Of a DNA stretch of 11,454 nucleotides, positions 1 through 11,454 are shown piece by piece. How positions within the stretch are numbered: the stretch's first letter is position 1; every line of letters starts with the position of its first letter. The notes beneath the pieces were generated by a model. It saw only the letters and a program-made list of their open reading frames with translations, was not told the origin of the DNA and did not search any database. Source of the stretch: an uncultured Ruminococcus sp. (GTDB taxonomy: Bacteria > Bacillota > Clostridia > Oscillospirales > Acutalibacteraceae); the NCBI GenBank assembly GCA_902772795.1, contig CACYBZ010000061.1, positions 1 to 11,454 on the forward strand, in the 5' to 3' direction. Position numbers and translations under genes: made by a program.

Positions 1-131
1 AAAAAGTTTTGTCCACTTTTTCAAAAGTGGTGGGGTCGAGGGGCAAAGCCCCTCGTGGGATTTTTAAGGGCGAAGCCCTTAAACTATCCGAATTTTAAAA
101 AGTTGGTGAGGTCAAGAGTGAAACCCTTGAG
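1..131 (+). repeat. Hairpin-rich intergenic repeat, copy 1 (tandem: full unit plus degenerate unit)
   Basis: No gene is visible in this stretch. The full unit (1-83) starts with a conserved AAAAAGTTTTG and holds three hairpins in a row. H1 is CCACTTTT/AAAAGTGG (13-30). H2 is CGAGGGGC-aaa-GCCCCTCG (37-55). H3 is TTTAAGGGC-gaa-GCCCTTAAA (63-83). The linkers GGGGTC and GTGGGATTTT separate them. A second, shorter unit follows: a degenerate H1 at 88-106 (one G-U pair, one mismatch) and a degenerate H2 at 112-130 (one A-C mismatch), again separated by a GGTC-type linker (GAGGTC). The same architecture recurs at 5675-5780 and 11348-11434, in the opposite orientation. Its role is unknown. It could be a transcript-end structure, a REP/BIME-like element or a non-autonomous mobile repeat. 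No target-site duplication is visible. Confidence 0.8.
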
Positions 132-5227: not shown

Positions 5228-5674
5228 ATGAAAGTTATTTTATTACAGGACATCAAAGGAACAGGCAAAAAAGGAGAACTGAAAGAAGTATCTGACGGAT
5301 ATGCCAGAAATTTTCTGTTGCCGAAGAATCTTGCCAAGAAAGCGACAGCCCAGGCAATGAGTGAACTCAAGACGGCAGAAGAATCCAAAGCCTTCAGGAT
5401 TGAGGAAGAAAAGAAAAGAGCCAACGGCGAGAAAAAACAACTGGAGGGTCAGTCTGTCAGAATTACCGCCAAAGCAGGCAGTAACGGCAGACTGTTCGGT
5501 TCAGTGACAGCAAAGGAAATTTCGGCTGAACTGAAAAAGCAGTTCAGTATCAATGTAGACAAAAGAAAAATCACGCTTGATGCCGATATCAAATCATTCG
5601 GCACATACAATGCACAGATAAAACTCTATACAGGTATTGTGGCACAAGTGAAAGTTGTTGTAACAGAGGCCTGA
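5228..5674 (+). CDS. rplI: 50S ribosomal protein L9
   Basis: Large-subunit ribosomal protein that binds 23S rRNA near the L1 stalk and helps maintain reading frame. The 148-residue length is normal for the family. The N-terminal RNA-binding domain holds the L9 signature around [20 protein letters not shown] (residues 13-32). A long charged helix (about 40-75) connects it to the C-terminal domain, which ends in [11 protein letters not shown]. The ATG start has GAGGAAAGGA at 5210-5219, 8 bases upstream. An out-of-frame ATG at 5221 is not used. The gene lies between gdpP and dnaB, the usual Firmicutes arrangement, but a 157-base gap with a repeat element separates it from dnaB. Confidence 0.97.
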
Positions 5675-5780
5675 GTTCAAGGGCTTTGCCCTTGAAAATC
5701 CCACGGGGGACGCTGTCCCCCGACCCCTGCCCACTTTTGAAAAAGTGGGTCAAAACTTTTTAAGGTTTAAAAAGTTTTCG
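5675..5780 (-). repeat. Hairpin-rich intergenic repeat, copy 2 (inverted, inside the operon)
   Basis: Read on the - strand this is the same unit as 1-83: AAAAAGTTTTG, H1, GGGGTCG, H2, GTGGGATTTT, H3. On the + strand H3 is TTCAAGGGC-ttt-GCCCTTGAA (5676-5696), H2 is CGGGGGAC-gct-GTCCCCCG (5704-5722) and H1 is CCCACTTT/AAAGTGGG (5730-5749). The stems differ in sequence from copy 1, yet both arms have changed together so pairing is kept. The unit starts one base after the rplI stop codon and occupies most of the rplI-dnaB gap. It could attenuate or punctuate transcription between the two genes, but there is no clean U-tract directly after a stem. Confidence 0.82.
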
Positions 5781-5793
5781 GTTGTTTTGAGGT

Positions 5794-5813
5794 ACAGGGA
5801 CGGAAATCCCTGT
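5794..5813 (+). promoter_or_regulatory. Small hairpin just upstream of the dnaB ribosome binding site
   Basis: A perfect 7-bp stem, ACAGGGA (5794-5800) with TCCCTGT (5807-5813), closes a 6-base loop and ends about 5 bases before the AGGAAG ribosome binding site. It is separate from the repeat copy. It might influence dnaB translation or mark an RNA processing site. No function is established. Confidence 0.35.
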
Positions 5814-5831
5814 CTGAAAGGAAGTGATGAG

Positions 5832-7196
5832 ATGGCAGAAAGTACAGAGTTGCTCAATGAGATAAAGTTGCCTTACAATATGGAGGCGGAACAGTCGGTA
5901 TTAGGGGTTATCATGATGGATAACGACTGTATGGACGTTGTGGCGGAGATTATTCCCAGCAAGGATTATTTTTATGTTTCCGACCATAAGTTGATTTACG
6001 CAAGCATACTTTCGCTTTACAACAGGGGAAAGTCAATGGACGTAGTTACTGTTCTCAATGAACTGCGGAAAAACAGTGCATTCGATGACGATGAGAAAAG
6101 CCGTGCTTATTTTACAAAGATTGCACAGGTTACACCGCATATCGGTCATGCCCGTGACTATGCCAACATTGTCAAGGAGAATTATGAAATCAGACGGCTG
6201 ATTACTGTTGCCAAGAACATCATTGAAGAAGCCAGTGACGGAGGTTCAACATCACAGCAGTTACTCGACAGTGCCGAACAGAATATTTTTGATATACGAA
6301 AAGGGGCAGACATCAAAAGTCTGGAACATATTGAAAGTGTCATTTATCAGACGCTTTCCCGACTGGACGCACTCAATTCGCCCGATGAGGACAAGGCAAA
6401 GCCGATATCTTCAGGTATTGCGGATCTGGACAGGGTCATTACAGGGCTGAACCGTTCCGACCTGATTCTGCTTGCCGCCCGTCCGGGTATGGGAAAAACT
6501 TCTTTTGCACTGAATATTGCCCGACACGTTGCCACGAAACTTCATCAGAAAGTGGCTTTTTTTTCTCTGGAAATGACAAAGGAACAGCTTGTTTCCCGAC
6601 TGCTTTCCACGGAAGGACTCATTGAGGGAACGAAGTTACGTTCAGGAAAACTAGACAATGACGAATGGGCAAGGCTGATGGAAGCGGCAGAGATTTTAAG
6701 TCATGCCAATATGTATCTTGACGAAACCACCATGCTGACTGTTCCCGCAATGAAAGCCAAACTGCGTCGTCTGAAAGATGTGGATCTGGTAGTCATTGAC
6801 TATCTGCAACTGATGGGCAGTACACTGAGGACAGAAAATCTGGTACAGGTTGTCGGCGAAAATACAAGGGCGTTGAAAAGTATGGCGAAAGAATTACACG
6901 TTCCTGTAATTCTGTTGTCCCAGTTGTCCCGAGCCAGCGAACAGAGAGCGGAACACCGTCCGATGTTGTCCGACCTGAGAGATTCAGGTTCTATCGAACA
7001 GGACGCTGACATTGTGCTGTTTCTTTACCGAGAGGGCTATTATAACGATAAGAATGCGTCAGATACCGATGAAGTGGACATGAACCGTGGTGAATGTATT
7101 GTAGCAAAGAACCGTCACGGTGAAACCAACACGGTAAAACTGCACTGGCAGGGCGAATTCATGCGTTTTACTTCGCAGGAGGACAGATATGAATGA
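5832..7196 (+). CDS. dnaB: Replicative DNA helicase DnaB
   Basis: Hexameric ATP-dependent helicase that unwinds DNA at the replication fork (called DnaC in Bacillus subtilis). The 454-residue protein has the N-terminal DnaB domain beginning at PYNMEAEQSVLG (14-25), a linker around 155-185, and the RecA-like C-terminal domain. Walker A is ARPGMGKTS (216-224) and Walker B is LVVIDYLQLM (319-328). The motifs QLSR (364-367), DLRDSGSIEQDAD (381-393) and KNRHG (426-430) are all present. I start it at ATG 5832 because AGGAAG lies 7-8 bases upstream and the family's N-terminus begins there. The longer in-frame GTG at 5745 lies in the repeat and would add 29 unrelated residues. Its stop overlaps the tilS start by 8 bases, which suggests translational coupling. 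Confidence 0.97.
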   Translation: MAESTELLNEIKLPYNMEAEQSVLGVIMMDNDCMDVVAEIIPSKDYFYVSDHKLIYASILSLYNRGKSMDVVTVLNELRKNSAFDDDEKSRAYFTKIAQVTPHIGHARDYANIVKENYEIRRLITVAKNIIEEASDGGSTSQQLLDSAEQNIFDIRKGADIKSLEHIESVIYQTLSRLDALNSPDEDKAKPISSGIADLDRVITGLNRSDLILLAARPGMGKTSFALNIARHVATKLHQKVAFFSLEMTKEQLVSRLLSTEGLIEGTKLRSGKLDNDEWARLMEAAEILSHANMYLDETTMLTVPAMKAKLRRLKDVDLVVIDYLQLMGSTLRTENLVQVVGENTRALKSMAKELHVPVILLSQLSRASEQRAEHRPMLSDLRDSGSIEQDADIVLFLYREGYYNDKNASDTDEVDMNRGECIVAKNRHGETNTVKLHWQGEFMRFTSQEDRYE

Positions 7197-8570: not shown

Positions 8571-9113
8571 ATGGAGAACAGTTATTTACCCGAAAATTTT
8601 GAAAGAGTTCTGCTCAGTGAAGAACAGATAGCCGAAATTGTCAGTACGCTGGCAGAGCGTATCAACCATGACTTTCAGGGCAGGGAACTGCTGGTGGTAG
8701 GCATACTCAAGGGGAGTTTCATGTTTATGTCTGACCTTGTCAAGGCGTTGAAAATTACCTGTCATATTGATTTCATGTCCGTTTCGAGTTACGGCAATGC
8801 CACGCAGTCAAGCGGAAGAGTGAACATTGTCAAAGACTTGTCTGAATCCGTCAGCGGAAAAGATGTGCTTGTCATAGAAGACATCATTGACTCAGGCATT
8901 ACACTGGATTTCATCATCAGACACATACTCAACAAGGGTGCGGAGAGTGTATCGCTGTGTACTTTGCTCAACAAACCGCACCGCAGAAAAAAAGATGTTC
9001 CCGTAAAGTACTGGGGACGGGAAATTGAAGATGAATTCGTGGTAGGCTACGGCATGGACTATGCGGAAAAATTCAGGAATCTGCCTTTTATCGGTATTCT
9101 TAAAGAAAATTGA
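8571..9113 (+). CDS. hpt: Hypoxanthine-guanine phosphoribosyltransferase
   Basis: Purine salvage enzyme that transfers the phosphoribosyl group of PRPP to hypoxanthine or guanine, giving IMP or GMP. The 180-residue length is typical. The PRPP-binding motif is VLVIEDIIDSGITL (99-112), with the acidic pair E103-D104. Other family segments are ILKGSF (45-50), the flexible-loop region SSYGN (72-76), K135 with its neighbours, and FVVGYGMDYAEKFRNLPFIG (157-176) near the C-terminus. I start at ATG 8571, with GAGGA at 8559-8563. An in-frame TTG at 8565 would overlap the tilS stop and crowd the ribosome binding site. The tilS-hpt-ftsH order is conserved in Firmicutes. In Bacillus subtilis, HprT and TilS together have been reported to affect ftsH expression. 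Confidence 0.96.
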   Translation: MENSYLPENFERVLLSEEQIAEIVSTLAERINHDFQGRELLVVGILKGSFMFMSDLVKALKITCHIDFMSVSSYGNATQSSGRVNIVKDLSESVSGKDVLVIEDIIDSGITLDFIIRHILNKGAESVSLCTLLNKPHRRKKDVPVKYWGREIEDEFVVGYGMDYAEKFRNLPFIGILKEN

Positions 9114-11302: not shown

Positions 11303-11312
11303 GTAACAAGAA

Positions 11313-11347
11313 AAAGCTGTCTGACACAAAATCAGACAGCTTTCTTT
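11313..11347. terminator. Rho-independent terminator closing the operon
   Basis: A perfect 12-bp stem, AAAGCTGTCTGA (11313-11324) with TCAGACAGCTTT (11332-11343), closes a 7-base loop. On the + strand the stem runs into TTTCTTT. On the - strand it runs into a better tract (TTTTTCTTG), so it may stop transcription from both sides. It begins 10 bases after the ftsH stop codon. Confidence 0.92.
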
Positions 11348-11434
11348 AGTCAGGGGCTCCGCCCCTGAACCCCGCAAGCCTTTGAAAAGGCTTGACCGAA
11401 ACTTTAAGGCGAAATCTGCTGACGCAGATTTCGG
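11348..11434 (-). repeat. Hairpin-rich intergenic repeat, copy 3 (inverted, diverged)
   Basis: Right after the terminator, this copy holds H2 as TCAGGGGC-tcc-GCCCCTGA (11350-11368) and H1 as CAAGCCTT-tgaa-AAGGCTTG (11375-11394), separated by the complement of the GGGGT linker. A further perfect 10-bp hairpin, CGAAATCTGC-tgac-GCAGATTTCG (11410-11433), lies where copies 1 and 2 have no hairpin. H3 is absent. Sequence identity with the other copies is limited but order, spacing, loop sizes and linkers match. The last 20 bases of the window show nothing I can assign. Confidence 0.75.
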
Positions 11435-11454
11435 AAAACGTGCAGGAAACAATC

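Follow-up and report, generated by a model that had tools for sequence, protein, structure and literature searches.

The stretch analysed here (the window, 11,454 nucleotides) is one whole contig of an uncultured Ruminococcus sp., with element copies at both its ends. Its source assembly (G000) comprises 2,239,832 bases in 480 contigs and is 84.6% complete. According to Pfam, the window carries an ion-channel gene, ribonuclease J, a GdpP-like gene, rplI (the gene for ribosomal protein L9), DnaB, TilS, a phosphoribosyltransferase and an AAA/M41 protease of the FtsH type, all on the + strand. Between and around these genes lie copies of a repeat composed of short hairpins (H1, H2 and H3), which were scored with R1, a covariance model built from ten equal-length copies of G000 and used to align all other copies. 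The features are the following:

1–83, + strand: copy A, full core (sequence, fold, model R1 96.3 bits)
1–83, + strand, parts of copy A: lead AAAAGTTTTG; H1 at 13–30; GGGGTC; H2 at 37–55; linker GTGGGATTTT; H3 at 63–83 (sequence, fold)
88–129, + strand: weak, decayed partial unit behind copy A (R1 12.3 bits, E 0.041, filters off)
5676–5762, − strand: copy B, full core (sequence, fold, R1 102.0 bits)
5676–5749, − strand, parts of copy B: H3 at 5676–5696; H2 at 5704–5722; H1 at 5730–5749 (sequence, fold)
5752–5778, − strand: extra AT-rich palindrome on the leading side of copy B (fold)
11311–11345, listed on the − strand: terminator-like hairpin behind ftsH, adjoining copy C and possibly used by ftsH (terminator listing)
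11349–11407, − strand: copy C, truncated core of the CAAGCC type (sequence, fold; R1 47.0 bits for 11314–11407)
11350–11394, − strand, parts of copy C: H2 at 11350–11368; H1 at 11375–11394; linker GTGGGATTTT and H3 missing (sequence, fold)
11410–11433, − strand: hairpin H0 of a double element, CGAAATCTGC TGAC GCAGATTTCG (fold; same module in other G000 copies)
11434–11454, + strand: probable start of a spacer, in other doubles running to CCGAACGAAGTGAGCC and a second core, here cut by the contig end (comparison with other copies)

Copy B starts one base past the rplI stop codon. The predicted fold energies of 1–85 on the + strand (z −3.64) and of 5675–5780 on the − strand (z −4.93) were lower than those of all 200 shuffles, and that of the longer stretch 1–131 was matched by 2 of 200. 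The Rfam 15 covariance models gave no match in the window with E up to 1. The initial annotation, made from the letters of this contig, had described three copies with common order, spacing and linkers and a second unit reaching to 131. The common plan was recovered in copies A and B, copy C ends short of the third hairpin, and of the second unit a weak match was left.

The core, of about 86 nt, follows the plan lead AAAAGTTTTG-H1-GGGGTC-H2-GTGGGATTTT-H3, the three hairpins being short perfect palindromes in fixed order with fixed linkers. H2 exists in two length classes, and since MAFFT misaligned these classes and copy C, model-based alignment was used. Alignment of the copies revealed that linkers and loops are kept as sequence; the earlier statement that the fold rather than the sequence is conserved was therefore too strong, although folding itself is constrained (see below). 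By eye, many single copies in G000 open with a fourth hairpin, H0 (for instance AAAATTTGC-nnnn-GCAAATTTT), whose stem varies in both arms, and in the doubles of this genome an inverted CAAGCC-type core is followed by H0, then by a spacer that ends in CCGAACGAAGTGAGCC, and finally by a second core. This suggests that copy C with its H0 belongs to such a head-to-head double as its left half, the remainder being cut off by the contig end (11454).

In G002, a sister genome, and in some copies of G000, G001 and G003, the core, often followed by a right-hand hairpin H4, is bracketed by inverted ends TTTCYACCTGWGCGGTTGRAA, which are terminal inverted repeats of roughly 21 bp. Fourteen of the 18 regions fetched for these ends were two-ended; 13 of them span 127–242 bases and one, holding a further repeat inside, 470. 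With up to 3 mismatches, the ends occur 191 times in G002, 36 in G000, 24 in G003, 20 in G001, once in G005 and not at all in G004, and the reversed pattern was absent from all six of these genomes of the genus. Within 480 kb of G002, 27 of 29 inverted ends lie within 350 bases of a core, and pairs of them span 149–389 bases. By contrast with these bracketed copies, most of the 60 copies printed out of 82 found in G001 and G005 are bare cores without inverted ends, often beginning ATAAAGTTTAGG, and no terminal repeats were found around eight copies of four other genomes. Since the core occurs with and without inverted ends, the core is the common part and the inverted-repeat element is one carrier. 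The alternative named in the initial annotation, that the stems might be explained by the terminal repeats of a MITE, thus applies in part: copies do lie inside an element with terminal inverted repeats, but the hairpins are internal to it and are not those repeats.

Some other arrangements were seen beside these elements. Two inverted-repeat elements at different sites of G001 (L193 on C53 and L194 on C27) contain H3 and H4 and lack H1 and H2, which suggests deletion derivatives that still spread. Another repeat, which opens with ATATGCACTAA or a similar sequence, lies directly at the H2 of the element in L202 (C221), L209 (C461) and L210 (C358) of G000, and in L202 the insert has the hairpin GGGGCAAAGCCCC at either side, as though H2 had been a target. 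Runs of AATGCGTAATTCGTAAT beside many elements, for example in L096–L099 (G002, C50), look like a separate small tandem repeat. Four loci of two other genera (L064, L066, L077 and L079, in G022 and G016) share on their right side a flank containing GCAGGA(A/G)GG, possibly the end of another carrier.

The repeat is abundant in the genus. G000 gave at least 46 BLAST matches to copy B (40 of 183 candidates scored) and at least 151 matches to R1 (150 candidates scored); the 150 listed go no weaker than E 1.3e-7, so that the true number may well be higher. At least 110–114 R1 matches each were obtained in G001, G002, G003 and G005 (112 candidates scored), all of the same genus, and three, with a best E of 6.7e-11, in G004, also of this genus and 99% complete. 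Among the 150 listed copies of G000, 41 begin within 150 bases of the first base of a contig, against 4.8 expected. Contigs thus break at copies, and the high density previously noted, three copies in 11 kb, overstates the average of this genome. The 480 kb of G002 gave 230 hits, of which 226 were non-overlapping and 183 near full, and the same sequence reversed gave none. On merging, 156 elements were obtained: 47 single copies on the + strand, 47 on the − strand, 45 head-to-head '−+' doubles and 17 other groups, with no '+−' double standing alone. Identical sequences were present among 38 of the 183 near-full cores, in 13 groups (compared from AAGTTTT on).

With R1 at E 1e-4, scoring 29 candidates in each genome, matches were obtained in 32 of the 150 genomes from the family, the own genome included; these represent 30 of 135 genera. 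In a phylum sample 2 of 199 genomes matched; one was the own genome, leaving 1 of 198 others. Outside the family but within the order, 15 genomes were searched, and 1–3 matches at E 0.01 were obtained in three of them; one of these, G036, shows the architecture. Weak matches in G030 and G031, also of other families, resemble unrelated groups of hairpins and were rejected as members. In twenty stretches taken from ten other genera the lead is AAAGTTT or close to it and H1 mostly has a TTCA-type loop; nearly all of them have a GGGGTC-like linker and H2, with quite different stem sequences; H3 and its linker vary most across genera. A pattern scan of named genomes found at least 104 stretches, and the 80 listed all came from the metagenome-assembled genomes RUG10751, RUG11850, RUG158 and RUG213 (RUG denoting rumen genomes), which are labelled uncultured Ruminococcus or Clostridiales. 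An IMG/VR contig classed as viral (L315) also carries a single copy of the G001/G005 type (8728–8756, − strand); the sequence surrounding this copy agrees with locus L273 of G001, so that the contig may be host DNA. In the literature searched, with most subscription journals outside it, no work on such repeats in Ruminococcus or its relatives was recognised from titles and abstract openings.

The stems of these copies were then compared pair by pair in four alignments (A5–A8; A7 holds the best 150 of 187 matches), which were fitted to the R1 structure, so that pair counts lean towards it. Among 55 distinct copies of G000, 98.4% of the cells were standard pairs, 21 of the 25 pairs changed on both sides, and 161 cells had changed on both sides as against 7 on one. 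Because of this fitting and of the relatedness of the copies, shuffle counts are not probabilities; none of 500 shuffles reached any of five covariation measures in this set. The 136 distinct copies of G002 had 420 cells changed on both sides and 26 on one, with four measures reached by none of 500 shuffles and one, further pair types, by 87. For the 62 copies of G001 and G005 the figures were 172 and 34, and 0 of 500 shuffles on all five measures; for 45 copies taken across genera they were 252 and 11, with four measures reached by 0 of 500 shuffles and pair types by 1. Structures slid along the alignments scored at most 0.152 in covariation and the true structures 0.355–0.590; these controls, together with the arms visible in the raw copies, speak against an alignment artefact. 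These results indicated that hairpin formation is constrained and that the covariation is real. The proposal that both arms had changed together was therefore confirmed, and the covariance-model search of the genome and its relatives that had been suggested as a check gave strong covariation throughout, with all controls passed except further pair types in G002.

We consider that these repeats are probably non-autonomous, high-copy, dispersed palindromic repeats of the MITE/REP kind that act at the DNA level. This reading is based on copy number, architecture, covariation, scarcity of G.T pairs, mostly intergenic placement in both orientations, presence or absence at given sites, identical copies and the enclosing inverted-repeat element. 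Against it stand the fact that no mover was found in the searches for RAYT and for long pairs of the inverted ends, and the compensation of 7 of 15 changed stem pairs in positional orthologs, which suits selection in place or exchange. The earlier opposition between a functional structure and a decayed repeat proved a false choice: folding is constrained, and there are also at least 110–151 dispersed matches per genome in five genomes, some identical and some at sites that are empty in relatives.

The composition of the stems bears on whether DNA or RNA is folded. An RNA stem tolerates G.U pairs, and a palindrome that folds on either DNA strand, or is copied from arm to arm, does not. G.T pairs made up 8 of 1327 standard stem pairs in G000, 27 of 3305 in G002 and 34 of 1479 in G001/G005 (0.6–2.3%), and 18 of 1017 across genera, versus 24 of 434 (5.5%) in 20 tRNAs from the fetched stretches. 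This scarcity relative to tRNAs favours DNA palindromes over RNA, and together with the placement in both orientations it points to a DNA role. It is not proof, since RNA use of both strands would avoid G.T pairs as well. In GTAG repeats, G-T pairing is often observed and its frequency in REPs has been taken as a sign of RNA function, according to excerpts of PMC3733652; here such pairs are scarce and the sign points the opposite way.

Ten placed elements had no copy at the corresponding site of a sister genome. By eye, the flanks were clean on both sides at 3 of these 10 sites (L216, L246, and L099 near rplI), and unalignable bases lay between the flanks at the other 7; at any single site of this kind gain is indistinguishable from loss. 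The gdpP–rplI gap holds a copy in G002 and consists of 20 bases in the window. The gap behind rplI has a copy on the − strand in G000 and copies on the + strand in G001 and G005, which have copies in common in both gaps around this gene, and G004 has no copy in the approximately 350 bases printed on each side of it. Behind ftsH, both G000 and G002 carry copies. At sites common to sister genomes whole modules have been lost or gained. The elements that could be placed were 3 of 241 of G002 in G003, 4 of 13 of G003 in G002, 6 of 43 of G001 in G005, 4 of 52 of G005 in G001, 9 of 30 of G000 in G002, 2 of 30 of G000 in G003 and 14 of 241 of G002 in G000, and as many stretches, above all those of G000 and G003, were fetched for holding copies, the shared-site counts are inflated. 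The ends of the inverted-repeat element lie in A/T-rich runs, and no target duplication could be fixed from the aligned sites. As to gene order, rplI of G004 (L091) is not followed by dnaB, unlike in the window (5228–5832), and the next frame looks cupin-like by eye.

A tentative extension of the DNA-repeat reading, which we regard as possible but doubtful, is that these copies form a class of mobile hairpins that can do without RAYT and is widespread in one family, in which a putative recombinase would read three folded hairpins by shape, loop and linkers, and whose lineage-specific stems would have co-diversified with it in a lock-and-key-like manner.

An unlikely explanation is that the repeats are cis-acting RNA, with hairpins at 3' ends and in operon gaps stabilising or attenuating mRNA and selection at each site keeping the stems. 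Part of its evidence comes from placement, where gene context rests on a crude ORF caller. Of the 156 G002 elements, 143 lie outside called ORFs, which counts for the DNA-repeat reading, and 13 overlap them; of the 141 in classed gaps, 99 are in co-directional, 24 in convergent and 18 in divergent gaps. However, co-directional gaps are 303 of all 397 gaps in the 480 kb anyway (48 are convergent and 46 divergent). Free gap length is 30,359 bases in co-directional, 9,457 in convergent and 11,232 in divergent gaps, from which about 31 of 141 elements would be expected in divergent gaps instead of 18, so that promoter gaps look avoided. Mapping against gene orientation, also suggested initially, gave a mild strand bias: of 174 single copies counted in the co-directional gaps of five genomes, 104 are on the strand of the genes (p 0.012), which also tells against pure DNA parasitism, but both orientations occur. 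In G001 and G005, 32 of the 45 single copies on the genes' strand in co-directional gaps begin within 60 bases of the upstream stop codon. Against an RNA function stand the scarcity of G.T pairs relative to tRNAs, the copies missing in sister genomes, and G004, with three matches in the same genus.

Positional orthologs bear on the same point. Sixteen copy pairs were formed, a copy being kept only if it had a partner of 70 bases or more on the same strand. As G000 is part of 9 of these pairs, several of which are poorly aligned, stem changes were counted only in the seven pairs that come from the two closer genome pairs (about 88% identical DNA). In these, 182 of 197 stem pairs were unchanged, 7 were compensated and 8 had single changes, and 30 of 247 unpaired positions differed, so that stems change less. 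The unchanged and compensated pairs suit per-site selection on RNA. This low rate of stem change argues that inserted copies do not simply decay neutrally, or else reveals that they exchange sequence with others. Among eight G000/G002 ortholog pairs, several of them poorly aligned, the ortholog was more similar than almost every one of 25 random paralogs in 2 cases, and in the other 6 it was not. Copies, once inserted, may be open to selection in place, including selection on RNA.

Concerted mutation, by template switching at quasi-palindromes or hairpin exchange between copies, would produce covariation in the absence of selection; we judge it improbable as the explanation. It would suit the near-perfect Watson-Crick stems with few one-sided changes, the occurrence of hairpin variants in changing combinations, and the modules lost or gained whole at shared sites. 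When G002 copies were compared with their 8 nearest copies, private changes comprised 10 double pairs in 9 copies, 21 broken pairs, 8 single changes to G.T and 50 unpaired positions; some of the double changes are known hairpin variants in a new combination and may represent exchange and not mutation. However, the broken and G.T private changes persist, and concerted mutation alone explains neither the dispersal nor the same architecture over many genera.

That the copies are REP/REPIN-type repeats moved by RAYT, a Y1 transposase, has a rather remote chance of being correct. Excerpts of PMC3116915 and PMC3733652 describe for such repeats, as found here, short palindromic, intergenic, high-copy units, inverted doubles (45 of 156 elements in G002), compensated or alternative complementary stem residues, and a location mainly between co-directional and convergent genes. 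The RAYT domain PF01797 matched three times in G002 and once in G003, but all four matches contain stop codons, and no match was found in G000 (84.6% complete), G001, G004 or G005, of which G000, G001 and G005 each carry at least 110 element matches. Over the family, PF01797 was present in 18 of 32 element-bearing and 52 of 118 other genomes (p 0.24), and eight genomes with at least 12 element matches lack it. Given its absence from copy-rich genomes and the missing association across the family, a present need of these repeats for RAYT is unlikely. By eye, neither strand of the core consensus has the GTAG or CGTC tag of REPs. The present repeat differs further in combining three distinct palindromes whose order and linkers are fixed. 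Inverted doublets are the main unit of REPINs; among the 156 elements of G002 there are 45 such doubles and 94 single copies.

Two-way transcription terminators are a most improbable explanation. In their favour, the H2 of copy A (37–55, + strand) with its T-rich linker is listed as terminator-like, the T run being set off by the linker, and stems that pair perfectly on either strand could work in both directions, which would likewise keep G.T pairs out. However, the hairpins of copies B and C are absent from the terminator-like listing of the window, copy C adjoins a different terminator-like hairpin, just 24 of 141 elements are in convergent gaps (which make up 48 of all 397 gaps), and several other genera have no T stretch between H2 and H3.

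Returning to the dispersed DNA repeat, other known families are also akin to it. As described in excerpts of PMC3733652 and PMC3049150, bacterial MITEs (RUP, NEMIS, Nezha and ERIC) resemble that part of the copies which lies in a non-coding element with terminal inverted repeats of about 21 bp; the lack of coding capacity, intergenic location (143 of 156) and small core of about 86 nt are likewise MITE-like. The differences are that the core also occurs without such ends, notably in most printed copies of G001 and G005, and that neither the 480 kb of G002 nor the genus-wide matches listed revealed a resident insertion sequence having these ends. Nor did a search for long pairs of TTTCYACCTGWGCGGTTGRAA ends, as an autonomous source, find any in these 480 kb or among those listed matches; an autonomous copy with the same ends may exist in the genus. 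The BOX elements of Streptococcus pneumoniae (excerpts of PMC3049150) are likewise composite repeats built of modules in a Firmicute; they too are predicted to fold strongly, and their mover is uncertain. Compared by module plan and not by sequence, they consist of boxA, a variable number of boxB, and boxC, and the present repeat is found mainly in another family. The kind of repeat is known, but several features are unusual: three hairpins keep a fixed order, the stems are free in sequence while staying palindromic across many genera, G.T pairs are scarce, the carrier changes, and RAYT is missing.

We propose that the core would spread as DNA into intergenic gaps, either alone, as head-to-head doubles or in the inverted-repeat element. 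Its palindromes, as single-strand hairpins or cruciforms, would be read by a putative enzyme acting in trans, for which linkers and loops would be the part read as sequence. Sources with mismatched arms would presumably not spread, so that, within this proposal, mainly changes of both arms would become common among copies. An inserted copy may also act mildly on mRNA.

If this reading is right, uncultured bacteria harbour a large non-autonomous repeat family that fills intergenic gaps and is concentrated at contig ends. By plain extrapolation, G002, the densest genome, would have about 900 near-full copies (183 in 480 kb of about 2.4 Mb). The family would offer many paralogs with free stem sequence but constrained folding, and the missing enzyme would be a concrete target. 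The share of G.T pairs would provide a simple test to separate DNA palindromes from RNA folds in other finds of covariation.
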